DNA of 64,000 nt from Methylacidimicrobium sp. AP8 (GTDB lineage: Bacteria; Verrucomicrobiota; Verrucomicrobiia; Methylacidiphilales; Methylacidiphilaceae): contig NZ_LR797830.1 in assembly GCF_903064525.1 (NCBI RefSeq), positions 248,001-312,000 on the forward strand, in the 5' to 3' direction. The notes beneath the pieces are model-generated. The model was not told where the DNA came from, did not search any database, and worked only from the letters and a program-made list of their open reading frames with translations. Below are positions 10,144 to 54,002 of the stretch, in pieces. The translations under genes and the position numbers were made by a program. Each line of letters opens with the position of its first letter. The first letter of the stretch is position 1.

Positions 10144-10151
10144 GGAAGCCG

Positions 10152-10898: not shown

Positions 10899-10910
10899 GG
10901 CTTCTCTCCA

Positions 10911-11684
10911 TTACCCGCTTTTCCGGCCGCCGCGTGCGCCGATCTCGTGGTAGCCGGCGTATCCGACGATCCCGAATGCGGCCAGGTGAAGGCTTAGGAG
11001 AAGAAGGAAGGCGAGGAACCCCATACGCCGCGCAACCTTCCGGCTGCTCCGATCGGCTTCCGCCGCCCAGCATTCGGCGAGCACCTCTTCGAGCCGCTCC
11101 TCCGGATAGAGCCCCGGAGAGCGGGTGAAGAACGATCGCATATCCGAGGAGAGCGCTAGCGCCGCGGGTGCCGCGCAGTGGCGGAGGAGGCAGGCCGTCG
11201 CCCGGCGGGCTCGGGCAAAGCTTGCCAGCGCGGCGGCGGAGTAGGCGGCCGCCGCGGCCTCCCGGGCTGGGGATGTCAAAAGCGGCAGGCATCCGGCTTC
11301 CGGCGGGGGAGGGGGCAGCCCGTTCCGGCGCATCGCTTCCCTGGCTTGAGCGAACGCGAGCTCCTTCCACCGGGCTTCCGCTAAGACCCGGCGAGCCCAA
11401 GTGCGGATCGAAGATTTGAGAAATGGACGGGCTGTCGACAAGCCCGATGCGGGCAGCAGGACGAGGAAAGTCGCAAGCCCAGCAAGAACGCAGAGAGGAT
11501 GCCTGCGGGCTTTCTTCAGGAACTGCTTGTTCCAGAGCAGCGTAGAATGGGCGAGCAGAGCCCAGGAAAGAGCCCCGCCGAGAAAAGCGGACCCGAGGAC
11601 GCCCAGGAAGGCGGCCGGCGCCCGCCGTGCGAGCTCGATGAGGGCGGCGGTGGCCAAAAAGAGCAAATCGGGGATCCGCTCCAT
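10911..11684 (-). CDS. membrane protein, paralogue of the protein at 46344-47120
   Basis: About 257 residues from the ATG at 11684, which has GGAG 10 nt upstream; longer starts up to 11849 exist but overlap the divergent gene. Two hydrophobic segments near the N-terminus flank an LWN motif, a soluble middle contains the segment RSFFTRSPGLYPEE, and a last TM helix ends AFGIVGYAGYHEI. The protein at 46344-47120 has the same plan: the same ~50-residue spacing to LWN, a second helix ALATFV.ALLFFA against LATFLVLLPA, and a final helix ending TLIGWAAYQDI. I infer a shared unnamed family. Function unknown; it is paired with a secreted protein. Confidence 0.7.
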   Translation of the reverse strand: MERIPDLLFLATAALIELARRAPAAFLGVLGSAFLGGALSWALLAHSTLLWNKQFLKKARRHPLCVLAGLATFLVLLPASGLSTARPFLKSSIRTWARRVLAEARWKELAFAQAREAMRRNGLPPPPPEAGCLPLLTSPAREAAAAAYSAAALASFARARRATACLLRHCAAPAALALSSDMRSFFTRSPGLYPEERLEEVLAECWAAEADRSSRKVARRMGFLAFLLLLSLHLAAFGIVGYAGYHEIGARGGRKSG

Positions 11685-11839
11685 GGATTGCGGGCTCCGG
11701 CCCGAGGCTACGAAGCCGAAGGCTGCGGCGTCAATGACGCGGCTTGCGGCTCTCCCGCGCACCCATGGCCGAAAAAAAAGAGCCATGGCGAGAAAACAAG
11801 ATTGACGAGGGCTTCGTTCCGCCTTATGCGGGAAGTCCC

Positions 11840-12271
11840 ATGCGAACATCAGTCCTTGCGCATGGGTCCTTTTTTGTTGCCCTGGTTCTGGCCGGAGCTG
11901 CGACCGGACCGTCCGTGTGGGCCAAGACCGTCTATTATCCCCTTCGAAAGCCTATCCCCTCCTCGTTCCGGAAAGCGGGGCAGCTTTCCCCCGACGACTA
12001 CCTGACCGTCACGGTAGGGAGGGCGAAGAAGAAGATCGCGGTCTGGAGCTCGGCTCCCAGCAAGCCCTTTCGGCGCATCGGCCTCTTGGAGACGAACCGT
12101 CCGCGTCGTCACGCGGCCCGCATCGCGGCCGAGAACGGGGGCGATGGCATCCTTCTGGTCCAGCGCGAGGAGGAGCCCTACATCCCCGCTTGGGTGGGAC
12201 GGAGGCAGGGCACCCTTCGTTTCAGTGAATTCCGATACTGGTGGGTGATCGAAGGTCCACAGGCGCCTTAG
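11840..12271 (+). CDS. small secreted protein of unknown function
   Basis: 143 residues starting MRTSVLAHGSFFVALVLAGAATGPSVWAK, a convincing signal peptide that sets the start at ATG 11840 with GGAAG 5 nt upstream. The mature part is basic (for example VGRAKKKIAVW) and ends in an aromatic segment RYWWVIEG. No known motif. Its stop codon TAG at 12269-12271 lies within the outer end of a palindromic repeat, so insertion of the repeat probably changed its C-terminus. Confidence 0.65.
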   Translation: MRTSVLAHGSFFVALVLAGAATGPSVWAKTVYYPLRKPIPSSFRKAGQLSPDDYLTVTVGRAKKKIAVWSSAPSKPFRRIGLLETNRPRRHAARIAAENGGDGILLVQREEEPYIPAWVGRRQGTLRFSEFRYWWVIEGPQAP

Positions 12272-12452
12272 CGGCCATTTCTCACAAATTTCGTAGCCGA
12301 GGCGCCGCAAATGGGCTTGGGTGCGAGGCGGGCGCAGGTTTTCCACCGGAGCTGTATGAAGACATACTGCGAGGATGGAAAACCAAGCGGGAGCGAAGCA
12401 GACGAGCCCGTTTTGCAAGCCGTTGGAGAAAGCTTGTGAGAAATGGCCGTTA
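12269..12452. repeat. palindromic interspersed repeat, copy 1
   Basis: About 185 bp whose ends are inverted repeats: GCGGCCATTTCTCACAA on the left and its near-complement on the right. The two halves also pair throughout, meeting at GCTGTATG-AAGA-CATACTGC. Nearly identical to copies at 15344-15529 and 30247-30431 (inverted). It has no transposase, so it is a MITE- or REP-like non-autonomous element. It lies directly at the stop codon of the upstream gene. Confidence 0.92.
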
Positions 12453-12553
12453 GGGCAGGATCTCCCCGTATTCGAGACACCGGCCCGGCGGCGCGGCCAA
12501 TTCGCTGGTCCGAAGCGGCACCACCAGGGTAGAGTATCGCGGGTTCGGCGAAG

Positions 12554-12638
12554 GCCCACGTGGTGGAATGGCAGACACACGGGACTTAAAATCCCGTGGG
12601 GGGAAACTCCCGTGTGGGTTCGAGTCCCACCGTGGGCA
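12554..12638 (+). tRNA. tRNA-Leu (anticodon UAA)
   Basis: 85 nt with a 7-bp acceptor stem (GCCCACG / CGTGGGC), discriminator A, anticodon stem CGGGA/TCCCG with loop CTTAAAA (anticodon TAA), a long class II variable arm (GGGGGGAAACTCCC) and a T arm GTGGG-TTCGAGT-CCCAC. No CCA is encoded and no intron is present. It sits between repeat copy 1 and the carboxypeptidase gene. Confidence 0.97.
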
Positions 12639-12693
12639 GGTTCTTCCCGTCCGCCGCCTAGAGGTTCCGGCCGGAGAGGAGCGAGGGAAAGCG

Positions 12694-13563
12694 ATGCGAT
12701 CGGGGAACGCGGGCTGGCGGAAGAGCGCGAGGCGGGTCGGCCTCTTGTCGGCCTGTCTTCTCCTTTGCTGCGGGTCGCCGCTCCACGGCGGAGAAGCGGG
12801 TCTGGATGCCCAGGTGCAGGCGGGCGCCGCGCTCCTCTGGGACGAGGGCGCGCAAAAGCCGCTTTTCCGAAGGCAGATCTCCGCGCTTCACGCACCCGCA
12901 AGCACGACCAAGCTGATGACAGCCTTGCTTGTCTATGAGAAGACTCGCCTGGCCGGAGAGGTCACGATCCGGCCGGAGGATTTGCGGGGAGCCGGGGAAG
13001 TGCCCACCGTCCGCCTGCTGCCGGGGGACCGCTTCACCACCGCCGATCTTGTCCGCGCCCTTTTGATCAGCTCGAGCAACGAAGCGGCCCTGGCCTTGGC
13101 CCGCACGGTTTCGGGCTCGGTCGGCGGGTTTGTCGCCGACATGAACGCGCGCGCCGCCGCCTTGGGTTGCCAAAGAACGCACTTCGTCAATCCGAACGGC
13201 ATCAGCGAGCCGGGCCACTTGACCTGTGCCCGCGATCTCCTGCGTATTTTCGAGGCCGTGCTCGCCGTCGAAGAGCTGCGCGCGATCTGCGCGACCGACG
13301 GCTTCGCACTCCTGACAAGCGATGGCAAGGCGGTGCAGTACCTGATGAACACCAACCGCCTCCTCGGACCCTATCCCGGGATGGGGCCGGCCAAGACCGG
13401 CTATACGCGGGAAGCACGGCACACCTACGCCGCCTTTTGCCAGCGAGGGGAGCGCAAGGTGTCCCTGATTCTGCTCGACAGCCCGAACAAATGGGCCGAC
13501 GCCGTGGCTCTCTTCGATTACGCCTTCGGCGGGAAGGCCGAGGGGGTTGAAGGGGCGCCCTGA
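12694..13563 (+). CDS. D-alanyl-D-alanine carboxypeptidase (penicillin-binding protein, S11 family)
   Basis: A periplasmic peptidoglycan-trimming enzyme of the PBP5/DacC type. From ATG 12694 (GAGG ~8 nt upstream) it has 289 residues with a signal peptide ending near residue 32. All three serine beta-lactamase-fold motifs are present: STTK at 70-73, SSN at 127-129 and KTG at 234-236. The frame extends upstream through the tRNA, which rules out longer starts. It lacks the PBP5 C-terminal beta domain and amphipathic anchor. Its 3' end overlaps the converging glycosyltransferase gene by 46 bp. Confidence 0.92.
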   Translation: MRSGNAGWRKSARRVGLLSACLLLCCGSPLHGGEAGLDAQVQAGAALLWDEGAQKPLFRRQISALHAPASTTKLMTALLVYEKTRLAGEVTIRPEDLRGAGEVPTVRLLPGDRFTTADLVRALLISSSNEAALALARTVSGSVGGFVADMNARAAALGCQRTHFVNPNGISEPGHLTCARDLLRIFEAVLAVEELRAICATDGFALLTSDGKAVQYLMNTNRLLGPYPGMGPAKTGYTREARHTYAAFCQRGERKVSLILLDSPNKWADAVALFDYAFGGKAEGVEGAP

Positions 13564-14603
13564 GGCGGCGAAGCGGCGCCTTCGTCGATAAGCCTCTGGT
13601 AGATCGCCAGATAGTCCTTCGCCATTCGTTCCGCGGTAAAGCGCCTTTCGAAGGAGAGCCGGATCTGCTTCCGGGACAGCTGCGCCGCAAGAGGCACAGC
13701 CCGGACGGCTTCCTCCACGTTTCGGACCAGGAAGCCGGTGGTTCCCGGTTCGAGGACTTCGGGTAGCGCGCCGTAGGGAAAGGCGATCACAGGGGTGCCG
13801 CAGGCGATCGCTTCGATGGTCGACAGGCCGAAGGGCTCCGGCCATTGAATCGGGGAGATCAGCGCCACCGCGTTTCCGATCAGGGCCTGCTTCTCGCTCT
13901 GGTGGACTTCCCCCAGGAAGCGGACATGGGGAAGGGAGAGCAGGGGGCGGATGGTTTCGATGTACTCGGCGTCGTGGCGTGGATCCTCCTTGGCGGCGAT
14001 GAGCAGCGGGATGCCTGCCCTCCGGGCGATTTCGATCGCCAAGTCGGGCCGCTTCTCCACGGAGAGGCGGCCTAGGAACAGGAGATATCCTCCTTCTCCG
14101 CGGCCGAGGGAGTAGAGCTTTTCGGGCAGCCCGTGGTGGACGGTGCCCATCCAGCGCGCCTGAGGAACCAACCTTCGCTGCGCATCGGAGATGGCGACAA
14201 CCGGCATCTCCGGAAAGCCGTCGAAGAGCCGGCTCGTTTCCGGCGCATCCAGCCGGAGATGGAGGGTGGTCACCGTGCGGTTGGGCCGGCCTCGGAAGAA
14301 CGGGAAGTGGAGGAACTCCGTGTGAAAATGGAGCACGTCGAACTCGGCTTCCGCCCGGAGCGCCGCATCGATCTCCAGGATGAAATAGGGGAGGTAATCC
14401 CGGCAGTCGGGCATCTTGCGGAGGCTTTGCGGGCAGACCGAACGAAGCCTTGCGCGGGTGAGGGAGTCTCCGCTGGCGAAGAGAGTAACTTCGTGTCCAA
14501 GGTCGACCAGAGCCTCCGTCAAAAAGGAGACTACCCTCTCCGTGCCCCCGTAGCCCTCCGGGGGGACGCGCTCTACCGGAGGTGCAATTTGCGCGATTCG
14601 CAC
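13518..14603 (-). CDS. glycosyltransferase family 4 protein
   Basis: A GT-B fold retaining glycosyltransferase of 361 residues. The N-terminus holds the acceptor-side motif PPEGYGGTERVV, and HFHTEFLHFP lies mid N-domain. The C-domain has FLGRLSVEKRPDLAIE and the nucleotide-sugar motif PEPFGLSTIEAIACGTPVIAF. It probably adds a sugar to an envelope polysaccharide or lipid; donor and acceptor are unknown. Starts at GTG with a weak ribosome site. Confidence 0.9.
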   Translation of the reverse strand: MRIAQIAPPVERVPPEGYGGTERVVSFLTEALVDLGHEVTLFASGDSLTRARLRSVCPQSLRKMPDCRDYLPYFILEIDAALRAEAEFDVLHFHTEFLHFPFFRGRPNRTVTTLHLRLDAPETSRLFDGFPEMPVVAISDAQRRLVPQARWMGTVHHGLPEKLYSLGRGEGGYLLFLGRLSVEKRPDLAIEIARRAGIPLLIAAKEDPRHDAEYIETIRPLLSLPHVRFLGEVHQSEKQALIGNAVALISPIQWPEPFGLSTIEAIACGTPVIAFPYGALPEVLEPGTTGFLVRNVEEAVRAVPLAAQLSRKQIRLSFERRFTAERMAKDYLAIYQRLIDEGAASPPQGAPSTPSAFPPKA

Positions 14604-14712
14604 GACGGGCCAGGCTAGAAGGGCATCCGTCCCGAGTCAAGGACGATGGAAAGATCGTGCTCCCGCGGCAGCCCCCCGCCCGGTCCGATTACCAAAAGAG
14701 GCGATGAAAGCA

Positions 14713-14742
14713 TTGACAGCGTGAAAACCTGCCGGCTACTCT
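14713..14742 (+). promoter_or_regulatory. possible sigma-70 promoter giving a near-leaderless carbonic anhydrase mRNA
   Basis: A perfect TTGACA (14713-14718) is followed after 18 nt by TACTCT (14737-14742), a weak -10. Transcription would begin at about the ATG at 14748, and no Shine-Dalgarno is visible, so the message may be leaderless. Confidence 0.3.
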
Positions 14743-14747
14743 CCGGC

Positions 14748-15329
14748 ATGCCCAGTATCCTTGAATCGGTCCTCGATGCGAATCGGCGCTATGCCCTGAA
14801 TTTTGGAGACAAAAAGAATCTCGCGATGCCGCCGGCACGGCGTTTTGCGATCCTGACGTGCATGGACGCGCGGTTGGACCCAGCAAAGTTTGCGGGCTTG
14901 AACGAAGGGGATGCCCATGTGATCCGCAATGCGGGCGGGAGGGCGAGCGACGACGCGATCCGTTCGCTGGTGATCTCCTACAAGCTTCTGGGCACTCGGG
15001 AATGGTTCGTGATCCACCACACCGACTGCGGCATGGAGACCTTTACCGACGAGATCATGCGCGGATTGCTGGCGAAAAGCCTCGATCACGCCGTCCTGGA
15101 GAGCGACGGATGGCACGATCGAGGATCCGGCTCCGGCACTTCGGAGGCCCAGTATATCGACTGGCTGACGATTCGCAACCAGGAGGAGAGTGTCGTGGAC
15201 GACGTCCAGCGCCTCCGCCGGCATCCGCTGGTTCCCCCTTGGATTCCGATCCACGGATTTCTCTACGACGTGCGCTCCGGCGTTTTGCAGCCGGTTGCGG
15301 CGGCGAGCGCCATCGGGGCCGCCAAATAG
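14748..15329 (+). CDS. beta-class carbonic anhydrase
   Basis: Interconverts CO2 and bicarbonate. The 193-residue protein carries the beta-CA zinc site and dyad: Cys38-Met-Asp40-Ala-Arg42 and His91-Thr-Asp-Cys94, with NAGGRASDD and [23 protein letters not shown] between. The sequence resembles the short type III beta-CAs (Rv1284-like). The start is chosen at ATG 14748, close to the first conserved residues; an in-frame GTG lies at 14721. Repeat copy 2 follows 14 bp after the stop. Confidence 0.9.
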
Positions 15330-15343
15330 CCCTATCGGGACCG

Positions 15344-15529
15344 CTAGCGGCCATTTCTCACAAATTTCGTAGCCGAGGCGCCGCAGATGGGCTTGGGTGC
15401 GAGGCGGGCGCAGGTTTTCCACCGGAGCTGTATGAAGACATACTGCGAGGATGGAAAACCAAGCGGGAGCGAAGCAGACGAGCCCGTTTTGCAAGCCGTA
15501 GGAGAAAGCTTGTGAGAAATGGCCGCTAG
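15344..15529. repeat. palindromic interspersed repeat, copy 2
   Basis: 186 bp bounded by CTAG on both sides, with 20-bp terminal inverted repeats starting CTAGCGGCC. Almost identical to copy 1, differing at single positions such as CGCAGATGG for CGCAAATGG. It lies between the stops of the converging carbonic anhydrase and acetate kinase genes, 2 bp from the latter. A folded transcript could act as a bidirectional terminator. Confidence 0.93.
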
Positions 15530-15531
15530 CC

Positions 15532-16752
15532 TCAAGCGGGGGCTTCCGGCTCGAGCGAAGCACGGCCGGAACGGACGAGAGAGCGGGTCTGCCGGGCGAT
15601 CATGAGTTCTTCGTCGGTCGGAACGACCCGGATCTCGGCGGGGCTCTCGTCGGTAGAAATGACCGGCTCGTTCTTCCGATTCCTCTCGGGATCGAGCTGG
15701 AAACCGAGGAAGCCGAGCGGAGAGCAGATCCTCTGGCGGATTTCGGGTGCGTGCTCGCCGATGCCGCCGGAGAAGACCAGGAGATCGACTCCTCCGAGCG
15801 CCGCGACGAGGGAGCCGAGGAACTTGCGCGCCTGATAGCAGAAGACCTCGATGGCCGCGGCGGCCTTCTCGTCGCTTGCTTCGGCCCGGAGCAGGTCGCG
15901 CATGTCGCCGGAGGACTCGGAGAGGGCGAGCAGCCCCGATTCCTCGGAGAGGAGCCTGGCGACCGTGGTCAACCGGAGGCCCCGCTCGCGCAGCAGGTAG
16001 AGGACGACACCGGGATCGAGGTCGCCGCAGCGGGTGCCCATCACGAGGCCCGAGGTCGGGGTGAACCCCATGGTGGTGTCGACGCTCTTCCCGCCGCGTA
16101 CGGCGGTCATGCTCGCGCCGCCGCCGAGGTGAGCCAGGACGATGCGGCCCCGCGCGCGCTCCGGGGGCAGGATCTTTTGCAGGACGGAAAGCAGATATTC
16201 GCAGGAGATCCCATGAAAACCGTAGCGCACCAACCCTTCCTTTCGGAGGGAGAGCGGCAGGGCGTAGGTGCGCGCCGCAAAAGGCATCGATCGGTGGAAG
16301 GCGGTATCGAAACAGCCCACCTGGGGGAGACCGGGCTTGAGCTTCCGGATGGAGCGGACCGCCTCCAGCTCGTGCGGGAGATGTTCGGGGGCCAAGCTGC
16401 AGAGATCCTGCAGCTTCTGGAGCACGGGCGAGGTGAGGAGGTGGGGAGCTCCGAAAACGGCGCCGCCGTGGACAAGCCGGTGGCCGACCGCATCGAGATC
16501 CTCCGTAGGATAAACCGAACCGAGCCAAGAAAAGAAGCGGCCGAGGGCGGCTCGGTGATCGGGGAGAGGGAGGCGTTCCTGCCAGATCGTGGCTCCCTGC
16601 GTGTCCTTGGCCTCGCAGAGCCCCTCCCCGGCTCCGATGCGCTGGATCTCCCCGGAAAGCAGCCTCTGCTCGGAGGAGGCCATCCCGAAAAGGGCGAACT
16701 TGAGGCTTGTGGAGCCGCTGTTGATCGTGAGGATCTTGTCCGCTTCGGCCAT
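15532..16752 (-). CDS. ackA: acetate kinase
   Basis: Interconverts acetate plus ATP and acetyl phosphate plus ADP. 406 residues, full length. Signature 1 is LTINSGSTSLKFALF (Asn11), signature 2 is FHGISCEYL, and the phosphate-binding LAHLGGGASM and the adenosine-binding SGGIGEHAPEIR are present. No phosphotransacetylase gene is adjacent. Repeat copy 2 is immediately downstream. Confidence 0.96.
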   Translation of the reverse strand: MAEADKILTINSGSTSLKFALFGMASSEQRLLSGEIQRIGAGEGLCEAKDTQGATIWQERLPLPDHRAALGRFFSWLGSVYPTEDLDAVGHRLVHGGAVFGAPHLLTSPVLQKLQDLCSLAPEHLPHELEAVRSIRKLKPGLPQVGCFDTAFHRSMPFAARTYALPLSLRKEGLVRYGFHGISCEYLLSVLQKILPPERARGRIVLAHLGGGASMTAVRGGKSVDTTMGFTPTSGLVMGTRCGDLDPGVVLYLLRERGLRLTTVARLLSEESGLLALSESSGDMRDLLRAEASDEKAAAAIEVFCYQARKFLGSLVAALGGVDLLVFSGGIGEHAPEIRQRICSPLGFLGFQLDPERNRKNEPVISTDESPAEIRVVPTDEELMIARQTRSLVRSGRASLEPEAPA

Positions 16753-43583: not shown

Positions 43584-44144
43584 TCACCAGAAGGTCAACG
43601 GGGGCATCAACGTCCAGCCCATGCCCCAATCCATCCCGGGATAGCCCCAGCCCCACTCCACGCGGGGATCGTCCCAGTGGTTGCTCACAACGTGTTCCCG
43701 CCACAAGTGGATCTTCGTCGCGGCGATCAGAGGATAATTGTACCGTCTTTCGCCGATCCGCCCCGGCTGGGAGCCGACGATGCGCCCGACGACCGTGATT
43801 TCCCGGCCCCTTCTATAGACGTTGAGGTCGAGCAGCGAGGGGGTGCCGACGATAAACCGGCCGCCGGTCTTGTCGGAAGGGACGGGCCGGTCGTAGGGGT
43901 TCAGGTCATGCTCAAGCACCTCCAGGTAGGTGCACTGCTTGCGATGCTTCCCGTAGAGGATCCTTCCGCCCAACATCACCGTATGTTGGCGGTAGCGTGA
44001 AGGAGCGCTTCGAATGGCTGCAAAGGAGGGTTGATTCTGGACCTCCTTCTTGACCTCTTTCGGAAAGGGGCTGCAGGCGGCCAGGAGCAGGGTGAGAGCG
44101 AGGCAGGCTAGGAAACTTCTGCGACTGGACAGAACCGGATTCAT
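43584..44144 (-). CDS. Slp-family outer-membrane lipoprotein, third tandem copy
   Basis: 186 residues from ATG 44144. Lipobox LLAAC, then the Slp pattern QPSFAAIRSAPSRYRQHTVMLGGRI, LEVLEHDLNPYDRPV, GGRFIV and YRRGREITVVGRIVG. The C-terminus is rich in Trp, Gly, Met and Pro (YPGMDWGMGW). Part of a three-gene tandem array with 44323-44889 and 44907-45485. Confidence 0.88.
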   Translation of the reverse strand: MNPVLSSRRSFLACLALTLLLAACSPFPKEVKKEVQNQPSFAAIRSAPSRYRQHTVMLGGRILYGKHRKQCTYLEVLEHDLNPYDRPVPSDKTGGRFIVGTPSLLDLNVYRRGREITVVGRIVGSQPGRIGERRYNYPLIAATKIHLWREHVVSNHWDDPRVEWGWGYPGMDWGMGWTLMPPLTFW

Positions 44145-44322
44145 CGAGTGGGACCCCGGAACCATCCCTTGGCTTGCTACGCGAGGCTAAGCGCGTTTCG
44201 CCATTACAAATTAGCACGGTCGGCGACGATTCTCCAACACTCTGCAGGAGTTCGCTGGGTCCGTCTCCCCTTGCGCCGGCGAAAGCGGGGATCGAGAGAA
44301 GCGCTAAACGCAGGCGGGCGGA

Positions 44323-44889
44323 TCACCACCACCAAGGGCCGAAGCCCCATCCCATGCCTAATCCCATGCCGGGATAGCCCCAGCCCCATCCCATGCCGGG
44401 ATAGCCCCAGTAAGCGTTGTTCGTCGCGTACTCGGGCCACAAGTGGATGTGCGTCGCAGCCACCACCGGGTAAGTATAGGGCTTTTCGCCGATCACCCCC
44501 CGCTGGGGTGTGGTGAGGCGCCCGACGACCGTGATATCTCGACCTTTGCTGTAGACGGAAGGATCCAAGAAGGTGGAGGTCCGGACGAGGAAACGGCCCC
44601 CGATCTTGTCGGAGTCGATCGGTTGATCGGAGCTGTCGAGCTTTTCTTGGAGCACCTCGAGGATGGTGACGTCCTTAAGGTTCTTAATCTGGGCGATCGT
44701 GCCCCCGAGCATTACCATCCGACCCCGGTAGGCGTAAGGGTTGTTGCGGATCGCGGCGAAGGACGGCTGCCCCTGCACCTGCTTTTTGATTTCGCTGGAA
44801 AACGGGCTGCAGCCGGATAGGAGCGCCGCAGCAAGAACCAAGCGAGGAATAGAAAACCACCGAGATCCCGAAAGAGCGGATCCGTGCAA
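44323..44889 (-). CDS. Slp-family outer-membrane lipoprotein, second tandem copy
   Basis: 188 residues from a TTG at 44889, chosen because AAGGAGG lies exactly 6 nt upstream; ATG codons further up lie inside the neighbouring gene. Lipobox LLSGC, then QPSFAAIRNNPYAYRGRMVMLGG, LEVLQEKLDSSDQPI and SKGRDITVVGRL. The tail ends GWGYPGMGLGMGWGFGPWWW, the most aromatic of the three. A 17-bp gap separates it from the first copy. Confidence 0.88.
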   Translation of the reverse strand: MHGSALSGSRWFSIPRLVLAAALLSGCSPFSSEIKKQVQGQPSFAAIRNNPYAYRGRMVMLGGTIAQIKNLKDVTILEVLQEKLDSSDQPIDSDKIGGRFLVRTSTFLDPSVYSKGRDITVVGRLTTPQRGVIGEKPYTYPVVAATHIHLWPEYATNNAYWGYPGMGWGWGYPGMGLGMGWGFGPWWW

Positions 44890-44906
44890 GCTGATCCTCC
44901 TTGTGC

Positions 44907-45485
44907 TCACCACATGCCGAAGCCGGGCATTCCGAAACCCGGGAAGAAGCCCATTCCCGGCCCCCACATGCCCGGCTCATATCCCCAGTTCATCATCGCC
45001 CAGTCGTAGTCCGCACCCGCTGTGCTCTCCGGCTGCCAGAGGTGGATCTGGGAAATCGAAATCACGGGGTAGGAGTAGCTCCTCTTGCCGATGGTTCCCG
45101 GTTGCACCCCGCTGACGCGTCCGGCGACGGTCACCTCGCGGCCGCGCTTGTAGATCGATGGATCGAGGAACTTGGCCGTAACCGCGAGAAAGCGTCCGCC
45201 CGATTGGTTCGTCGACAACGGCCGTTGGTCGCCTCCGAGAGGCCTTTGGACGATCTCCAGCACCGTCGAGTTCTTCCGATTCTGAATTTGCACGATTTTG
45301 CCGCCGAGAATCACAAGCCGGCCCCGGTAGGCGGTAGGATCTTGACGGAGAGCGCCGAAGGAGGGCTGGTCCTTGGCGGCCTCCACGGTGGATTCGGGAA
45401 AAGGACCGCCGCAGCCCGTGAGGGTCGCGAGGAGGAGAGTTGCCATGATCGACGCGAAAAGGAAACGCATGCGCTCACAGCTCAT
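44907..45485 (-). CDS. Slp-family outer-membrane lipoprotein, first tandem copy
   Basis: 192 residues. Lipobox LTGC at ~residue 25, then QPSFGALRQDPTAYRGRLVILGGKI, LEIVQRPLGGDQRPL, GGRFLAV and YKRGREVTVAGRVSGV. The tail is Gly/Met/Phe/Trp-rich (EPGMWGPGMGFFPGFGMPG). In E. coli, Slp is a carbon-starvation and acid-related lipoprotein. ATG 45470 is an alternative start. Confidence 0.88.
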   Translation of the reverse strand: MSCERMRFLFASIMATLLLATLTGCGGPFPESTVEAAKDQPSFGALRQDPTAYRGRLVILGGKIVQIQNRKNSTVLEIVQRPLGGDQRPLSTNQSGGRFLAVTAKFLDPSIYKRGREVTVAGRVSGVQPGTIGKRSYSYPVISISQIHLWQPESTAGADYDWAMMNWGYEPGMWGPGMGFFPGFGMPGFGMW

Positions 45486-45667
45486 TAAGCCCTATCATTG
45501 GCTGGTCGCCGGTTGATCCGTCAAGGCCAAACGGGCCTTGCGTTGCGCGCGCGGCGACATATCCGCAAGCGGCAAAAAAATCTTTGGCGGCAACCGGATC
45601 TGTGCAAACGTGTAGCGACGCGGCAGTCCGCCGCGGGCGAAGGCGGAAATCGCCCAGAGATGCAGAG

Positions 45668-46343: not shown

Positions 46344-47120
46344 TTATGTTCTGACCTGGATGTCCTGGTAGGCGGCCCACCCGATCAGGGTGAAGGGAAC
46401 GGATTGGACGGCGAAGAAGAGCAGCAAAAGGATCAGCCGTAGCCGGGGAACGAGCTTCGGGGTCTGCTGGTCGAGTTCCTGCTTGATGTAGTCGGCGACG
46501 ATGGCGACGGCCCGCGAGTCGGGATAGATCACGGGCGGTGCGGCGCTCAGGTATTGCTGCACGTCCTGGGAGACCGCCTCTTCGGCTTCCGTGATCCGGA
46601 CGGAGAGCATCCAGCTGAGGAACGGATGCATCCGCTGGAAGTTTTGGGCGGCGCTCTTCGCATAGATCTTGGCGATCGTGAACTTCGTATTGGGGCTGGT
46701 CAACGGGATGGTCGGGCCGCCGCTCTGATCCTGCCAGAGCGAGGGGTCGTGGGGCTCCTGGCCCAGCTGCCAGACGGTCTTCCGGGCATCTTGGAAGGTG
46801 GCGTGCTTCCATCCTTCGTTGCTCTGGAGCGAGGCCGCCCAGCGGTCAACGAACCCTTCTCCGGCGGCCTTGGCATGGCTCAGGGCGAAAAACAGCAGCG
46901 CGCCCACGAAGGTCGCCAGGGCGGCGATGCCGCAAAAGAGATGGTGGATCGGGTTGGCGTGAAAAAGCAGATTCCAGAGCTTGGTGTAATTGCTGGCCAG
47001 CCACCAGCAGCCGCCGGCGAGGAGAGCGGCGGCCACCCCAGTCAGCACGAACTGTCCCGTTGCTTCGACGAGGAAAAGAAGGATGCAGGCGCCGGTGACG
47101 GCGATCAGGTCTCCGAGCAT
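46344..47120 (-). CDS. membrane protein beside the tubulin-like system; paralogue of 10911-11684
   Basis: 258 residues from ATG 47120 (MLGDLIAVTGACILLF). Two N-terminal hydrophobic segments around an LWN motif at ~residue 49, a third segment ALATFVGALLFFALSH, a ~130-residue soluble part, and a final helix ending TLIGWAAYQDIQVRT. The layout is the same as in the protein at 10911-11684. It is divergently transcribed from the tubulin-like gene across a 313-bp region, which suggests joint control. No known motif. Confidence 0.7.
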   Translation of the reverse strand: MLGDLIAVTGACILLFLVEATGQFVLTGVAAALLAGGCWWLASNYTKLWNLLFHANPIHHLFCGIAALATFVGALLFFALSHAKAAGEGFVDRWAASLQSNEGWKHATFQDARKTVWQLGQEPHDPSLWQDQSGGPTIPLTSPNTKFTIAKIYAKSAAQNFQRMHPFLSWMLSVRITEAEEAVSQDVQQYLSAAPPVIYPDSRAVAIVADYIKQELDQQTPKLVPRLRLILLLLFFAVQSVPFTLIGWAAYQDIQVRT

Positions 47121-47433
47121 AAGACAGCTTTTAGGGTGTAAGAAAGGAGAGGGGCGAGTCAAGACGCCGGGCGCCCGGCCGATGGGTTCCCGGCGGTTCT
47201 CGTCCGAAGGGCTTGCCGGAAGGGGGAAGTTCGCAAGGCTTCCGAGCAAAAGGGATTGCTTTTTTTTCCCGCGCGGGTAATCCGATTCGAAGATATCCCT
47301 CGACCGCAGCTGATTTTGGTCCCGCGAAAGAATTTTCTCCCACGGCCCGGCAGAAGAACCGATCGGCGAAGCAAGAGGCGGGGGATAGGCCGGGCGATGG
47401 GGATCAGGGCAGGATGCTAGGCGAATCGGATGC
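47121..47433. other. divergent intergenic region upstream of the tubulin-like gene
   Basis: 313 bp without a coding sequence I can support. It presumably carries divergent promoters for the membrane-protein and tubulin-like genes. A T8 tract at about 47259-47266 is not preceded by a convincing stem. No repeat copy and no clear -35/-10 pair were found. Confidence 0.4.
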
Positions 47434-50400
47434 ATGAATCCTAACCACATGATCATCGGCCTGGGGGGGACAGGAGGCAAAATCATCCGGGCCTTCCGAA
47501 AGACCATCTACCAGGAATTCCGAAGCTTGAGTCCCAAGGAGATAAGCCTCGGATACCTCTACGTCGATTCGAGCGACGAGCTGATGCATCTTGACGATCC
47601 CACCTGGAAGATCCTGGGGCAGAGCGTGCAGCTGGGGCCGAACAGCCAGCTGCACATTCGGTGCGCCAATCTCTCCGCCATCCTGGAAAATCTGACCAAC
47701 TATCCGGGCATCCGCCCTTGGATCGGAGATCGTGCGATTTGGAACGACATTTTGGGCGGAATCGTCGGCGACGCGATCGGCGGACAGAAGCGGAGGCTCG
47801 GCCGGTTTCTCTTCGCCAATCATGCGACCGAGTTTCGCAACCGGCTGACCGCTCAGGTGCGCGAGCTGCAACAGGGCGGGGAGGCCAGCGTGACCTTCCA
47901 CGTCTGTGCCGGCCTGGCGGGAGGGACCGGGAGCGGTACGATCATCGACGCCTTTTGCCAGATCCGGCGTCTCTATCCCGACTCCTTGCAATATCGCATC
48001 ATCGGATACCTTCTCCTTCCGGAGGAACATCCGAAGCCCAACTGGAACACCGGCAACTACCATGCCAACGGCTATGCGGCGCTGGCGGAGCTCAACGCGC
48101 TGAGCGTCGGAAAGTTCTTCCCCTGCGACATCGCGGGGGACGGCAGCCGGATGACCGACTTGCAGACGCCCTTTAACGGCGCCTATCTCTTCAGCACGCA
48201 CAACGAGAACGGGCTTGCTCTCAGCGTGGACGACATCCCGAACGTGGTCGCGGATTTTCTCTATCAGAAGATCGTCACGGTGCGGAAGGTGAACTGGGCG
48301 AACCTAGCCAGGCAGGAGAACGCGGAAAACGGAGACGGGATGCCGGAAACGATCCCTGGGACCAACATCGGGGTTCGGTCCAAAAGATGGCTCACCTTCG
48401 GGGTGAAGAGGATTGCCGTGCCGGAGGAGGAGATTGCGGAATATCTCGCCTACCAGTTCGCCCGGCAGGCGGCCCTGCAGCTCCGCTACAACAACTGGTC
48501 GGAGACCGAGGGCTACCTGCCCAACGCCAAGAACGTCGATCTGATGAGCTACGCGACCGCTCCGGAGCAGCTCGAGCGGTGGCTGATCTCCGACGAGCAC
48601 CTGATTTTGTCGGCGCCCGTCCTGGAGGCGGACGGGACGCAGGGGCGTTGGCAGCCGATCACCCGGTACTGGACGACCGTTGTCGGGGCTTTCAAGCAGG
48701 AGATCCAGGAGAGGGAGGACGGAGCCAAGTGGCTCGACAGCCTCAAGGGAAGGCTGGAAATCCGTTTCAGCGACCAGTACCGCGGTCACGGTGTCAAGGC
48801 CTTTTATCAGACCGTATCGGCCTCGGCCCGGGAGCGGGCGCGGGAGATCCGGCAGAAGCTCGAGAGAGAGTTGTTCGGCAACTGGCGGGACGGGGTCCGG
48901 TCCGTTCATGAGATCGGCGCGCTCGTGGGCGCCGTGATCAGCTATCTGCGCGCCCGCTTCGAACGCTTCGATGACGACTTGTCCAAAGCGAAATCGCAGG
49001 AGGAGAGTCTTGCCAAGAAGCTCAAGGAGCAAGAGAAGGAATGGGTTAAGGTCGGGGTCATCTCCGACATGTTCGGGAAACGGAAGCGGATTTTCGACGC
49101 CTGTGCCCTGACCCTCCAAGACCTCTACGCCTGCCGGACGCGCATCGAAGGTTGGCAGTTCGCCAAGAAATTCGCTCCGGTGCTCATCGAGGAGATGACC
49201 CAATTGAAAGCCGAGCTCGACCGGAGCTCCGCGATGATCGCGGAGGCGCTCAAGAGCTTCGAGGAGCAGATTGCCGAACGCTGCGTCGATGAAGGCGGAG
49301 CGGTCGATTATCGGCAGCAGGTCATCCGGTTCTACGATCCGGATCTGGTCCGGACGGTGACGCGCAGGCTAATGAAGGATGCCAGGGAGCAGCTCACCCA
49401 GACGCAGCGGGTCCGGTCCGCTCTGGTCGGCATGTTGGGCGACAAGCTCGATTTCCGCACGTTCAATGAACGGATCAACCGGACGACCTTCCTGGACGTG
49501 CTCGCCAGCCAGTGCATGGAGAACGCGAAGATCGCCCACAATAATCTAATCGAAAGCACCAAGGAGAAGCTGATCGGTGTGAGCATCATCGATAAGCTGC
49601 GCGACCGCTATGGGGATCGGCAGTCCCTCCGCCTCTTCGTGGATGGAATCGTCAAAGCGGCCGGCAACTACTTGATTTTCAACCCGGACGAAATCAAGCG
49701 ATCGGCGCCGGGAATCAATCCGGGGGCGCAAATCTGCGTCTCGACCTTCACGGTGATCCTCCCCAAGGCGCCGGAAGCGGAAGATTTCGTCAAGATGCTG
49801 CGCGAGGTCTTTTGGGAGTGCGTGCAGACGACGGCGCGCGATTTCCTGGAGGGGAGCCGACCCAACGAGATCATCCTGGCCAGCGTCACCAATCTTTTCC
49901 CGCTGCGCGTGGTCCAGCTGCTCTCCTTTCTGCGGGCTCGGTATCTGGAACGGGTCAACGGCCCCAACCCGGCCCGCGCCCGGATGGAAATCCATATCGA
50001 GGATGACGGGCAGTCTCTTCCGAGCCTTTTCCTGCCGAGCCGGAGCGAGCTCCAGGATCGGATCGCTCCCTATCTGCTCCTCGGCAAGGCCTTGGGATTG
50101 ATCGCCGGCCGGGAGAACGAACGAGGGGCTCAGGAGCTGGCCATGCTCACCAAGGACGAGTTCGGCATCGAGACGCCGATCTTCCTGGAAGGAGCGACGA
50201 TCCCCGAAATCCTGGCCAATCTCCCTGAGTCGAAAGCCTTGACCCTGGAGGAAGCGGTAGCCAAGCACCTTGAGGATCCCCAGGTGCGCCGGGATCCGAA
50301 TCGCACCGAGACGACACAGAAGCTAGTCGCCATGGTCAACGAGTTCTCGCGTCAGCTCCCTCTTTCGGATCCTCAGGCCAAGCTTTTCCCGGAATGGGGC

Positions 50401-50436
50401 CGGCGGGCGATCAAGCTGCTCCGCGGGGAGGGATAG
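47434..50436 (+). CDS. tubulin/FtsZ-superfamily large protein (Tubulin_2-like)
   Basis: 1000 residues. The N-terminal GTPase domain has MIIGLGGTGGKIIRAF (glycine-rich nucleotide loop, 6-21) and the tubulin signature CAGLAGGTGSGT (~158-169), followed by FLYQKIV-type helices. A long helical middle (about 440-720) includes Lys/Glu-rich coiled coil (KSQEESLAKKLKEQEKEW). The rest is alpha/beta without a recognised motif. No TM helix or signal peptide, so it is cytoplasmic. The family was noted by Makarova and Koonin (2010) as the core of a predicted membrane-remodelling system with OmpA-family and von Willebrand A proteins. The next gene, 4 bp away, is an OmpA-domain protein, in keeping with that. 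Polymerisation is untested. Confidence 0.88.
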   Translation: MNPNHMIIGLGGTGGKIIRAFRKTIYQEFRSLSPKEISLGYLYVDSSDELMHLDDPTWKILGQSVQLGPNSQLHIRCANLSAILENLTNYPGIRPWIGDRAIWNDILGGIVGDAIGGQKRRLGRFLFANHATEFRNRLTAQVRELQQGGEASVTFHVCAGLAGGTGSGTIIDAFCQIRRLYPDSLQYRIIGYLLLPEEHPKPNWNTGNYHANGYAALAELNALSVGKFFPCDIAGDGSRMTDLQTPFNGAYLFSTHNENGLALSVDDIPNVVADFLYQKIVTVRKVNWANLARQENAENGDGMPETIPGTNIGVRSKRWLTFGVKRIAVPEEEIAEYLAYQFARQAALQLRYNNWSETEGYLPNAKNVDLMSYATAPEQLERWLISDEHLILSAPVLEADGTQGRWQPITRYWTTVVGAFKQEIQEREDGAKWLDSLKGRLEIRFSDQYRGHGVKAFYQTVSASARERAREIRQKLERELFGNWRDGVRSVHEIGALVGAVISYLRARFERFDDDLSKAKSQEESLAKKLKEQEKEWVKVGVISDMFGKRKRIFDACALTLQDLYACRTRIEGWQFAKKFAPVLIEEMTQLKAELDRSSAMIAEALKSFEEQIAERCVDEGGAVDYRQQVIRFYDPDLVRTVTRRLMKDAREQLTQTQRVRSALVGMLGDKLDFRTFNERINRTTFLDVLASQCMENAKIAHNNLIESTKEKLIGVSIIDKLRDRYGDRQSLRLFVDGIVKAAGNYLIFNPDEIKRSAPGINPGAQICVSTFTVILPKAPEAEDFVKMLREVFWECVQTTARDFLEGSRPNEIILASVTNLFPLRVVQLLSFLRARYLERVNGPNPARARMEIHIEDDGQSLPSLFLPSRSELQDRIAPYLLLGKALGLIAGRENERGAQELAMLTKDEFGIETPIFLEGATIPEILANLPESKALTLEEAVAKHLEDPQVRRDPNRTETTQKLVAMVNEFSRQLPLSDPQAKLFPEWGRRAIKLLRGEG

Positions 50437-50440
50437 CGCC

Positions 50441-52093
50441 GTGCCTCCCGCACCGGAGAGCTCGGGAGAACCGCCGGTCAGACGAGGCTTTTGCCGGAAC
50501 TACGGAAATTGTCCGACCCGAGCGGATACCCGCGCGGTGATCGCAGTTCCGGAAGGCAAGGAGTTTGTCTGCCCGGACTGCGGGAGCCCTCTGGTTCCTG
50601 AGGAAGAGGTTCTTCGCCGGCCGAGCCGAAGCCGTAAGGGAGGGCTTGGCCTCTTTCTGCTGCTTCTTCTGTTGCTGGGCGGCGGGGCGGGTCTTTGGCT
50701 GGCCCTGCGCGGGCAGCCGAGTCCCAAAACCGCGCCCGCGCCCCCGTCGCCGCCGCCTCCCATGACGCCCCCGCCGCCCATTGCCGAGCGGACGCTCTTT
50801 ACCGTCTCCGGCTCCCGAATTCTGGCGGCGAGGCTTGTCCCCGAGCTGGTGCAAGCATTCCTCTCCGAAGAGCTGCGCGCGACCGAGGTCGCCATCCGGC
50901 GGGGAAGGGACGGCCGATCGCTTGTCGTCGCCGGAAAGTCCGCGGAGGGGAAGGAAGAGCTTTGGGTCCGCATCGCGGCTTCGAGCACCGCGGAGGGCTG
51001 GAAGGATCTAGCCGAAGACAGAACCCAGATCGCGATGGCCTTCCGCAGAATTACGCCCGAGGAAGCGGCGCTTTTCGGCAAGGCGGTCAACATCACGGCA
51101 CCGGACTCCGAGCATGTCATCGGTGTCAGCGGAATCGCGGCGATCGTTTCGCCCGCCAACCCGGTTTCTCAGATCTCCTTGAGCGATCTGCGCAAGATCT
51201 TTCAGGGCTGGGAAGGGAGCGGCAAGGCCCTAGGCTTCCCGGGAGGGAAAATCGCCCTCTACGCTCCTGCGGCGGACACGGCCGGCTGGCAACTCTTCGC
51301 TCGCCGTGTGCTTGGGGGGGCTCCCGGCTCGTCCGCGATCATCCGCTTGGAAAGCGGCGAGGAGGTCTCTTCCCGGGTCGCGGCCGATGCTCGGGCCCTC
51401 GGGATCGTCGACTTCCCCCACATCGGTCGCTGCAAGGCCTTGGCTCTCTATGAGAAGGGCACTATCCCGCTGGCCCCGACGTTCGCATCGCTCGAGTCGG
51501 AAGCCTATCTGCTTTCGACTCGGCTCTACCTCTACACGAAGGGGAGCGGGCGGAATCCCGACGTTGACGCCTTTATCCAGTTCGCCCTTTCCGATCGGGG
51601 GCAGCAGGTCGTGCAGAAGGTCGGCTTCGTCGGCGCGGCGACAAAGGCGGCCGAAGCGGCGGAATCGTTGATTCAACCGAAGACCGAAATCCCCCGCGAT
51701 GCGCCGATGGATTACCGGGACCTGGTCAAGGGGGGGAATCGGGTCGCCTTCGACGTCCGTTTCCGGACCGGGAGCGCCGAGCTGGACAACAAGGCTCTCG
51801 TCGACATTCGTAGGCTGGCGAAGGTGATGAGCGAAAGGGGGGAGGCGGACCAAGCGGTTCTCCTGATCGGCTTTACCGACAATGTGGGGGATCGCGCCTA
51901 CAACTTGCGCCTCTCGGTCGAACGGGCAAAAAGCGTGGGCCAGGCGCTACGCGTCCTGGGGATCCCCGTCGCAGCGACCGCAGGGGAGGGGGACCAGATG
52001 CCCGTAGCGTCGAATGACACCCCGGAGGGCCGAGAGAAGAATCGCCGCGTCGAGCTTTGGATCGTTCAGGGGAAAGCCGCCGCGCAGCCCTAA
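50441..52093 (+). CDS. zinc-ribbon, single-TM, PstS-like and OmpA-like fusion protein
   Basis: 550 residues. N-terminal zinc ribbon with Cys18, Cys24, Cys44 and Cys47 in a CRNYGNCP...VCPDCG arrangement, predicted cytoplasmic; a TM helix at ~68-89; a Pro-rich linker; a PstS-like periplasmic binding domain (~119-400, FTVSGSRILAARLVPEL, DLRKIFQGWEGSG); then an OmpA-like peptidoglycan-binding domain (~430-545, GFTDNVGDRAYNLRLSVERAK and NRRVELW). GTG start with GGAGG ~9 nt upstream; 4 bp after the tubulin-like gene. It could link a cytoplasmic tubulin-like filament to peptidoglycan. Bound ligand unknown. Confidence 0.88.
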   Translation: MPPAPESSGEPPVRRGFCRNYGNCPTRADTRAVIAVPEGKEFVCPDCGSPLVPEEEVLRRPSRSRKGGLGLFLLLLLLLGGGAGLWLALRGQPSPKTAPAPPSPPPPMTPPPPIAERTLFTVSGSRILAARLVPELVQAFLSEELRATEVAIRRGRDGRSLVVAGKSAEGKEELWVRIAASSTAEGWKDLAEDRTQIAMAFRRITPEEAALFGKAVNITAPDSEHVIGVSGIAAIVSPANPVSQISLSDLRKIFQGWEGSGKALGFPGGKIALYAPAADTAGWQLFARRVLGGAPGSSAIIRLESGEEVSSRVAADARALGIVDFPHIGRCKALALYEKGTIPLAPTFASLESEAYLLSTRLYLYTKGSGRNPDVDAFIQFALSDRGQQVVQKVGFVGAATKAAEAAESLIQPKTEIPRDAPMDYRDLVKGGNRVAFDVRFRTGSAELDNKALVDIRRLAKVMSERGEADQAVLLIGFTDNVGDRAYNLRLSVERAKSVGQALRVLGIPVAATAGEGDQMPVASNDTPEGREKNRRVELWIVQGKAAAQP

Positions 52094-52103
52094 CCAGCTT
52101 CCC

Positions 52104-52274
52104 TAGCTCACAAAATTTCTATCCGGGGTGCGGGGCCGACGGGCCTGGAGGCAAGGCGGGGCGTGGGTTTGCCCTGCGGAGCTGTATGAAGCCATTGTAC
52201 GAGGAGGGCCAGAAACCGAGCCCTGAAGAAGGAGTCGGATCCATTGCGCAAGCCGCAGGAGAAGGCTTGTCAGA
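52104..52274. repeat. diverged full-length copy of the palindromic repeat
   Basis: Alignable along its length with copies 1 and 2, including CTCACAAAATTTC at the left, GGAGCTGTATGAAG in the centre and GCAAGCCGCAGGAGAAGGCTTGTCAGA at the right, but with many substitutions. It starts 11 bp after the stop of the OmpA-domain gene and separates it from the next gene. Confidence 0.8.
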
Positions 52275-52354
52275 CAGAAAGACCAACTCTGCTCTTACTT
52301 TGACAAAGCCGTGAAAATGAGAGAGAATGTTTCGTCACTAGGGCCAGGAGGCGT

Positions 52355-54002
52355 ATGAGCGATCTTGTTGATCCCGATGCGGATGTGAATCCTAGGAACC
52401 GGCCGGTGAACGCGGCCGGCAACGGACGGGCAAACGGCGCCCCGCCGCCTGCCGGAAGGGCTTCCGGGCGAACGCGCAAGGGGAAATGTCCGAACTTTGG
52501 GGAATGCCCGAACGGCGGAACGGTGATCGAGGTGCCGGAAGGGGCGTCATTCGTCTGCCCGGAATGCAACAGCGAGCTTTTGCCCGAACAAAGCCGCGGG
52601 GCCCGAAAATTACGGAGGCTCTTGGTCCCCTGTGCGCTTGCTGCGGCTCTCGGCCTCTTGGGAGCCGGTTCCTATTGGGTCGCGGGATCCCTGGTGAGCC
52701 TGATTGCGAAAAAGGGGGGCAACGAGTTGGGGACGACGGTGCAAAAGGGCGGGCCTCCGTCCGGCGACGGCAAAGGAGAGCTTGCGCTGCCTCCTCTGCG
52801 GGAGCGGAAGCCGACGCTCGCCGATGCGGAAGCGGCATTGCGGAAGGATCTGCCAAAGGGAATCACGCTGGTTTCGCTAAAACCGAACGAGGAGCAAAAA
52901 AATCCGGACGGCTCCTGGAGCAATGCCTATGACGCAACCGTCGTAGCCGAGAACGCGTACTATTGGGTTCCCGTTGCGGATCTGGATGCCGCAAACTTGG
53001 CCAGGCGGTTAGGCGAGGTTCCCGCTGACGAGCGGTCCTGGGCGCGACGGCACCTGAAAGATCTAGTGCTTACTCAGGACCAGGGACCAGGCCAGGAGTA
53101 TCTCTTCGACCGGAAGAAGCCGCTCGCTTTCTTGACGCCGGGCACCCCGTTCCCATTCGTGTGGAAAGTCGTGGCGACACCCGGAGAGGATGGTTCGTGG
53201 AAGTTCGTCCCGACCTCCCCACTTCCTTTTACGGCGCCGGCGCCGAGCGAAGGGGGAGCGGACACCCGGTTGGTGCTGCTGAGCGACCCCGAGCTCGAGC
53301 AGGCGCAATTGCTCGAGAGGCGGCGTTGGGACCAATTCGTCCAGCGGCTTAAGGAAATCGATCGGCAGGCCAGAAGCCGATACCGCGAGGTCATGAGCAA
53401 CGCCCCCGCCCGGGTCCGGAAGCCGGACGTGTTCCGAGCGGGGAGCGGCGGACCGACGACCCTGGCGGAAGGAGCCGGGCTCGGTGCGGTCGGCGGAGCC
53501 TTGGGGAGCCATGTTCGGCGGCGGGGAAGGGGCCGGGATTGGCGCGGGGATCGGCATGCTCCTGGGAGCCCTCGGCGGGGGGATCTATTCGCACCAGAAG
53601 CAGCAGAAGCAATACGAGGCGGCGCTGGCCGAGCGGGAGAGATATGAGCGCATGGCTGCCTCCGCCAAGCGCCGAGCACGCGATGAGCTTCTCGCGCAGT
53701 ACGAGCAAGAGCTGGAGCAGCAGGCGCAGCAGCGGCTCTCGCTGCTGGCGGGCGGCACCGTGGGGGTGAGCAAGTCTTCGCCTTTTGGGGGCGGCCCCGC
53801 GAATCCGTGGAGAGACCCGGCGGCTACGGAGATGCCCCCGTCCTCGTCGGAGGGTTCCGGGCCGCCACCTATGCCTCCGCTACCGACGCAACAAACCGAT
53901 GGACCACCGTCGGGATCCGGACCGTTCGGTGGCAACGCTCCTTTCCCGCCGACGGATAGCGGTGGCCCTCCACCACCTCCTCCCCCGCCTCCGCCGTATT
54001 GA
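52355..54002 (+). CDS. zinc-ribbon, single-TM, glycine-zipper/coiled-coil protein with an apparent frameshift
   Basis: Two frames, 52355-53647 and 53484-54002, together encode one protein of about 549 residues if one G is removed from GGGG at 53503-53506. The first part has a zinc ribbon (Cys45, Cys51, Cys68, Cys71) resembling the neighbour's (PEG-x2-FVCP-x-C), a TM helix (~89-117) and a soluble domain. The glycine zipper GAGLGAVGGALG continues across the break as FGGGEGAGIGAGIGMLLGALGGG, then a coiled coil (~580-bp onward, EAALAERERYERMA) and a Pro-rich tail ending in PPPPPPPPPPY. AGGAGG precedes ATG 52355. It may be a sequencing error, recent mutation or recoding. Confidence 0.75.
53503..53506 (+). 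other. apparent frameshift site (GGGG)
   Basis: Removing one G joins the frames seamlessly as G-A-L-G-A-M-F-G-G within the glycine zipper. The upstream frame continues to a stop at 53645-53647 with a very Arg-rich, non-protein-like sequence, as expected for a shifted frame. Confidence 0.7.

Follow-up and report, generated by a model that had tools for sequence, protein, structure and literature searches.

What does a large tubulin relative do in a bacterium when its gene sits beside genes for zinc-ribbon and OmpA-type membrane proteins? A cluster of this kind occurs in Methylacidimicrobium sp. AP8, a methane-oxidising bacterium with a genome of 2.30 Mb, whose closest named relatives in our named collection belong to Methylacidimicrobium and then Methylacidiphilum. 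We analysed a 64,000-nucleotide stretch of its DNA, referred to here as the window, in which a tubulin-type gene is followed by two genes for ribbon-bearing membrane proteins (adapter 1 and zr2) and faces a divergent gene for another membrane protein, memb (Table 1). At roughly one chance in two, we propose that the cluster encodes a cytoplasmic scaffold or filament of the tubulin family with a physical link to the cell envelope.

Table 1. Positions of the cluster genes and their notable parts in the window
Feature	Position	Strand	Basis or remark
memb, 258-aa membrane protein with LWN loop and C-terminal AAYxDIx motif	46344..47120	-	divergent from tubulin gene
Tubulin_2 / FtsZl1 protein, 1000 aa	47434..50436	+	PF13809, AlphaFold model, CetZ/tubulin matches
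T1-like nucleotide loop GLGGTGGK, residues 9-16	47458..47481	+	sequence
T4-like signature AGLAGGTGSGT, residues 159-169	47908..47940	+	sequence
Helical insertion inside tubulin C-terminal domain, residues 352-766	48487..49731	+	model secondary structure, match range
Rest of tubulin-type C-terminal domain, residues 767-841	49732..49956	+	element order, match range
Adapter 1: zinc ribbon - TM - PstS-like PBP - OmpA, 550 aa	50441..52093	+	Pfam, ribbon/TM spacing
Zinc ribbon of adapter 1, residues 15-55, predicted cytoplasmic	50483..50605	+	invariant cysteines
OmpA-like peptidoglycan-binding domain of adapter 1, residues 439-545	51755..52075	+	PF00691 E 1.2e-16
zr2 (adapter 2), part one: zinc ribbon - TM - uncharacterised domain	52355..53647	+	ORF
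zr2, part two, other frame: glycine zipper and proline-rich tail	53484..54002	+	ORF
G-run in zr2, lacking 2 bases present in relatives; site of the frameshift	53503..53506	+	DNA alignment
Second, diverged memb paralogue	10911..11849	-	A4 profile E 7.6e-33, ORF

By its sequence, the 1000-residue protein is a member of the known FtsZl1 (Tubulin_2) family, which was described by Makarova and Koonin in 2010 with Methylacidiphilum infernorum V4 in the alignment (PMC2875224). It matches the Pfam profile PF13809 over profile positions 2–354 of 356 with an E value of 4.5e-64, scoring 217 bits where 27 would suffice, and the open reading frame carries both motifs, GLGGTGGK and AGLAGGTGSGT, on which membership of the tubulin/FtsZ superfamily had been predicted. 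Across 36 homologues, residues G11, G12 and G14 of the T1-like loop are invariant, as are G163, G164, T165, G166 and G168 of the T4-like signature. The layout also follows that of FtsZl1, with an N-terminal GTPase-like domain bearing the AGLAGGTGSGT loop, a coiled coil represented by long helices at residues 491–538 and 549–615, a helical C-terminal part, a total length of about 1000 residues and an OmpA-type neighbour. The canonical FtsZ profile PF00091 stayed below threshold, at 19.4 bits against 33, and the canonical T7 catalytic motif NxDxxD is not visible in the protein. Residue E298 is invariant, even in distant Akkermansiaceae-like proteins; as it sits after an H8-like helix, any role for it is a guess. 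Searching by sequence, we found no credible solved relative in the PDB.

In the 2010 paper, neither T6-H7 nor a C-terminal domain of a known kind could be recognised in FtsZl1, and three options were left, one being that these elements are present and extremely diverged (PMC2875224). An AlphaFold model built from the alignment of 36 homologues, with a mean pLDDT of 89.9, bears on the question of whether the missing C-terminal elements exist. The top Foldseek match of the model is CetZ, followed by tubulins. By VIA-align 2, CetZ (PDB 3zid, 4b45 and 4b46) superposes with a Z score of 26.5, over 305 of 342 residues at 3.6 Å, and tubulin, BtubB (of BtubAB) and TubZ score 23–25. The matched range of the model runs from residue 2 to residues 842–869 and covers the target chains nearly end to end. 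The order of elements accounts for this long range: a strand at 319–328 and a helix at 331–351 are followed by a helical insertion at 352–766, after which come a strand at 769–777, a helix at 780–796, strands at 801–807 and 812–822 and a helix at 828–841. From this order we infer the tubulin succession S7-H9-S8-H10-S9-S10-H11, interrupted between H9 and S8. The protein is thus predicted to have a complete CetZ/tubulin fold, from which it differs in a helical insertion of about 415 residues that splits the C-terminal domain, and in sequence, with identities of 10–16%. A structural match to the tubulin fold had been set beforehand as a test of the original prediction, and the model provides one. 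In departing from the 2010 account by showing a C-terminal tubulin domain, the model favours the option of elements present but extremely diverged.

The fold resembles those of TubZ and PhuZ as well, which raises the idea of a division FtsZ or of a tubulin that segregates plasmids or phages. This we regard as the least probable of the readings weighed here. The gene is chromosomal and occupies a single locus throughout the genus. On contigs that are long enough, the cluster is flanked on one side by pnp, peroxiredoxin, pfk, slp lipoprotein and tonB genes and on the other by a ThiH-like gene, hemN and enolase. Identity inside the genus is 87–91% for the tubulin protein and 89–93% for the pnp product at the same locus, so that by sequence the former appears about as conserved as its housekeeping neighbours. 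A canonical division role was rejected in view of a separate FtsZ-type gene in the genome (C1:603906), and a phage or plasmid tubulin in view of the search results, with no phage match and a single full-length megaplasmid match. Some relatives, moreover, do not have the tubulin gene. Among the 30 nearest genomes, our own included, 11 carry the tubulin gene, and all of these belong to the same family; one genome (G008) is without tubulin, memb and ribbon genes. The sister genus has memb, tubulin, adapter 1, zr2 and memb in this order on one strand, at a different genome location. One sister-genus genome (G010) retains the flanking genes in order but, of the cluster, only zr2, with memb, the tubulin gene, adapter 1 and the second memb missing. 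Joint loss is the simplest reading of this absence; it would link memb, tubulin and adapter 1 and indicate that they are not essential there.

Beside the TonB gene in the window lie three adjoining paralogous genes for Slp-family outer-membrane lipoproteins (43584–45488, minus strand); several relatives in the genus have four Slp places at the same position.

Adapter 1 starts 4 bp past the tubulin stop codon. A protein with a ribbon, a transmembrane (TM) helix and PstS-like and OmpA-like domains had been predicted here, and Pfam confirmed both exported domains (PBP_like_2, E 7.8e-15; OmpA PF00691); the NCBIfam matches in the cluster are likewise of OmpA and PstS type, with none above cut-off among the matches listed. 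The ribbon has the form CX5C...CPDC and precedes a single TM helix. The stretch RRPSRSRKGG, rich in arginines and with a lysine, lies directly before the helix and, by the positive-inside rule, would place the ribbon in the cytoplasm. The OmpA domain keeps the pattern TDxxG...NLxLSxxRA, which we take to be typical of peptidoglycan-binding OmpA domains. Conservation along the chain is uneven. Within the genus, identity is 76–93% in the ribbon, 54–63% in the TM and linker region, 71–74% in the PBP domain and 85–93% in the OmpA domain; to the sister genus, the corresponding values are 51–68%, 20–31%, 31–34% and 62–63%. Conserved ends around a freely changing middle are to be expected of a protein that bridges two fixed partners, though such conservation is no proof of the ribbon's contact. 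In one related locus (L022, 8189–8343; genome G007), the adapter 1 ribbon is broken by a frameshift or stop, with the remainder of the protein open.

Ribbon proteins also occur beside Tubulin_2 genes elsewhere. We collected 80 named loci with a query made of tubulin sequences alone, added loci of the host's own phylum and reduced the set to 51 at about 65% identity, of which 47 have more than 1 kb downstream. A first motif rule found ribbons at 25 of 46 loci and was judged too strict; with the profile that replaced it, 40 of the 47 non-redundant loci have a same-strand gene for a ribbon protein no more than 3 kb downstream of the tubulin gene, a count that leans on the first because the profile was built from the motif-found, tubulin-adjacent genes. 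Of 342 genes located elsewhere in these loci, only one satisfied the stricter rule of motif plus TM helix; given how the profile was built, the comparison is not fully independent. The ribbon gene mostly begins within 35 bp of the tubulin gene, and its product has the ribbon at the N-terminus, typically followed by one TM helix. The arrangement occurs in seven phyla (Verrucomicrobiota, Bacteroidota, Pseudomonadota, Acidobacteriota, Thermodesulfobacteriota, Fidelibacterota and Elusimicrobiota), and the window cluster fits it, with an N-terminal four-cysteine ribbon and a TM helix just downstream of Tubulin_2. A neighbourhood of ribbon and OmpA proteins that persists across relatives, the second test set beforehand, was found. 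Operon conservation of this kind could also reflect regulation, with no docking involved.

The loci in which the profile detected no standard ribbon are of several kinds. At the expected place in L110, the ribbon is degenerate. Four long-branch relatives (L039, L040, L042 and L043), of which L042 and L043 are Akkermansiaceae-like, have no detected ribbon gene; in L042 its place is taken by a MotB-like protein, which matches OmpA weakly, and by membrane proteins with LWN and DIK motifs on both sides. In L055 a STAND-like ATPase is fused to the C-terminus of the tubulin, and the neighbours of L097 are ATPase, nuclease-like and DNA-methylase genes. With families assigned by eye, these last two loci lend some colour to a conflict or anti-phage system: upstream in L055 is a gene that may be TIR-like or nucleotide-hydrolase-like, L097 adjoins the methylase and nuclease-like genes, and restriction-type genes occur near L066 and L079. 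We nevertheless consider such a function very unlikely for the family member studied here, whose single housekeeping locus and high identity within the genus are unlike a defence island, and for which PADLOC models yield generic OmpA/MotB matches only.

The L055 fusion itself (9932–15612) looks like a conflict-system version; a second ATPase gene follows directly after it, and the upstream gene could by eye be TIR-like or deoxyribosyltransferase-like. A different setting is seen in Bacteroidota (L080–L124), where the tubulin and ribbon genes are followed by a conserved operon for exported proteins of about 370, 240, 330 and 520 residues, mostly without Pfam matches. One of these has a possible SnoaL/NTF2-like region, and the operon includes a glycine-zipper protein of about 255 residues that resembles the zipper of zr2.

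Across 41 adapters, the four ribbon cysteines (C18, C24, C44 and C47 in adapter 1) are the sole invariant residues, and the exported heads vary: PBP_like_2 and OmpA domains occur in nine members each, Big_2 in five, FGE-sulfatase and MORN in two each, He_PIG in one and a vWA-type domain in one, and others have no assigned family. The ribbon and membrane anchor thus appear constant, and the exported part seems to be exchanged between bacteria. The idea of the ribbon as a docking end gains support from the conserved ribbon and OmpA ends of adapter 1 and from the ribbon being the sole part common across phyla. The exchange also changes how the cluster compares with the operons of the 2010 paper. 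It had been suggested that this may be a distinct version, lacking the von Willebrand A (vWA) and GTPase partners of the published set. Part of this stands: the OmpA-type neighbour of the FtsZl1 operon is present as adapter 1, but unlike in the 2010 operons no vWA, GTPase or kinase gene is recognised beside the tubulin gene. Pfam found no vWA domain among the cluster proteins, the four VWA_2 matches in the genome all lie outside the window, and a scan of nine proteins encoded around that gene turned up no divergent GTPase or protein kinase domain. The distinctness itself is weakened by a locus from another phylum (L062, assessed by eye), where a vWA-like domain, matched as TssR_VWA, sits on a ribbon/TM adapter; the versions therefore look like exchanges of exported domains.

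A varied set of outside domains is also what a membrane receptor might have, and this is the main rival to the coupling we propose: PBP, Ig, MORN, FGE and vWA heads would sense, the ribbon would relay the signal to a GTP switch, and no filament would form. Such signalling we hold to be unlikely, although it draws on several observations. PstS-like and other ectodomains bind ligands, the exchange of sensor heads is generally usual in receptors, the canonical T7 loop is not seen, and transport or signalling was proposed by the reviewer Jekely in 2010. Against it, the predicted tubulin fold is full and includes the polymer-contact domain, which suggests assembly, as in all characterised relatives, and the OmpA domain suggests an anchor instead of a sensor.

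The divergent membrane protein predicted beside the tubulin gene, memb, is present. Its open reading frame was listed with 387 residues, of which about 130 at the N-terminus overlap the tubulin gene; aligned relatives start at a methionine that corresponds to a product of 258 residues, and the extra residues are probably spurious. In the 15 aligned members of the family, L48, W49, N50, R228, G247 and A250 are invariant, with Y251 and D253 close to it. In relatives, hydrophobic stretches at about residues 27, 63 and 220 suggest three helices, with the LWN loop and the DIK tail both in the cytoplasm. The model is helical (pLDDT 86) and has no convincing match in Pfam or the PDB; a weak F-BAR match (E 0.34) was judged to be chance. 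The protein recurs next to Tubulin_2 in other phyla, and its C-terminal DIK end can be aligned with membrane proteins of Akkermansiaceae-like loci (probability 93%). Most Bacteroidota have another small membrane protein in its place, for which the probability of kinship is 25%; we do not claim this kinship. The genome has a second memb copy about 35 kb away, and other genomes of the genus also have second copies elsewhere.

The other ribbon protein, zr2, carries one of the two adapter-type ribbons in the genome. It had been described as a single ribbon/TM protein with a glycine zipper and a proline-rich tail. The ribbon and TM helix are indeed encoded together, but the zipper and tail lie in another frame. 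In alignment with copies from related genomes, where both parts share one frame, the window DNA is 2 bases short in a run of G, which points to either an assembly slip or a real frameshift. A programmed frameshift was rejected because the related copies are in one frame.

With memb and the adapters the cluster has membrane anchors, and these bring in a further reading, in which a filament strictly remodels membranes by bending or scission of the inner membrane or by building internal ones. Methanotrophs, purple bacteria and magnetotactic bacteria are groups known for intracytoplasmic membranes, and many of the proteobacterial and nitrospirotal carriers of Tubulin_2 (L057, L060, L062, L063, L078, L079 and L097) belong to them by name, though sampling may contribute to this; several proteobacterial carriers may share the trait. 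Many Bacteroidota carriers are without such membranes, however, and the adapters reach peptidoglycan or exported proteins, a better fit to envelope coupling than to remodelling of the inner membrane alone. Remodelling in the strict sense, as proposed by Makarova and Koonin (PMC2875224), is compatible with the evidence, and we rate it as quite improbable in this form.

Taken as an envelope coupler, the cluster could work as follows. The Tubulin_2 protein would provide a GTP-binding core and a C-terminal domain with a helical arm. Single-pass adapters would dock on it through their cytoplasmic zinc ribbons, and their exported domains would engage envelope targets, which here would be peptidoglycan through OmpA, with the PstS-like domain of adapter 1 as a possible ligand sensor. 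As a second membrane anchor, memb would present its LWN loop and DIK tail to the cytoplasm; the topology proposed for it and for the adapters follows the positive-inside rule. GTP-dependent assembly would then organise envelope components or be controlled by them. We infer the docking, the polymerisation, any membrane remodelling and the cellular role of the machine. More tentatively, and with less than even confidence, we extend the proposal to the family: Tubulin_2 may be the core of a modular coupler between cytoskeleton and envelope, in which a polymer with a helical arm receives a constant ribbon/TM plug bearing OmpA, PBP, vWA, Ig, MORN or FGE heads.

Parts of this design have parallels. 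FtsZ is held at the membrane by separate adapters, ZipA/SepF, and the cluster is analogous in pairing a tubulin relative with separate membrane adapters. Unlike ZipA or SepF, to which we saw no homology, the adapter spans the membrane with its ribbon predicted inside and an envelope-binding domain outside. With MotB, ZorB and TssL-type proteins it shares a C-terminal OmpA peptidoglycan-binding domain on a single-pass membrane protein; it differs from them in its N-terminal zinc ribbon and PBP domain, and no MotA/ZorA partner was recognised in the cluster. The main text of the 2010 paper does not mention a zinc-ribbon/TM adapter, and its unnamed families A1–A2 and B1–B9 may include ribbon or memb proteins (PMC2875224). 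In the literature searched, which was mostly non-subscription papers and, for the 2010 study, its main text, we found no link of the family to zinc ribbons and no experimental study of Tubulin_2 since 2010. The family and its Methylacidiphilum membership were already known; within that literature, the ribbon adapter is the new part.

A constant cytoplasmic ribbon with interchangeable heads offers a direct binding test, and the recurring arrangement with its swappable outside parts gives a testable idea of how a poorly understood family of the bacterial skeleton works. If true, it would be a new kind of linkage from a tubulin polymer to the cell exterior, and bacterial tubulin relatives, for which few anchoring modes are known, would gain one more, in carriers that range from acidic environments to animal guts.
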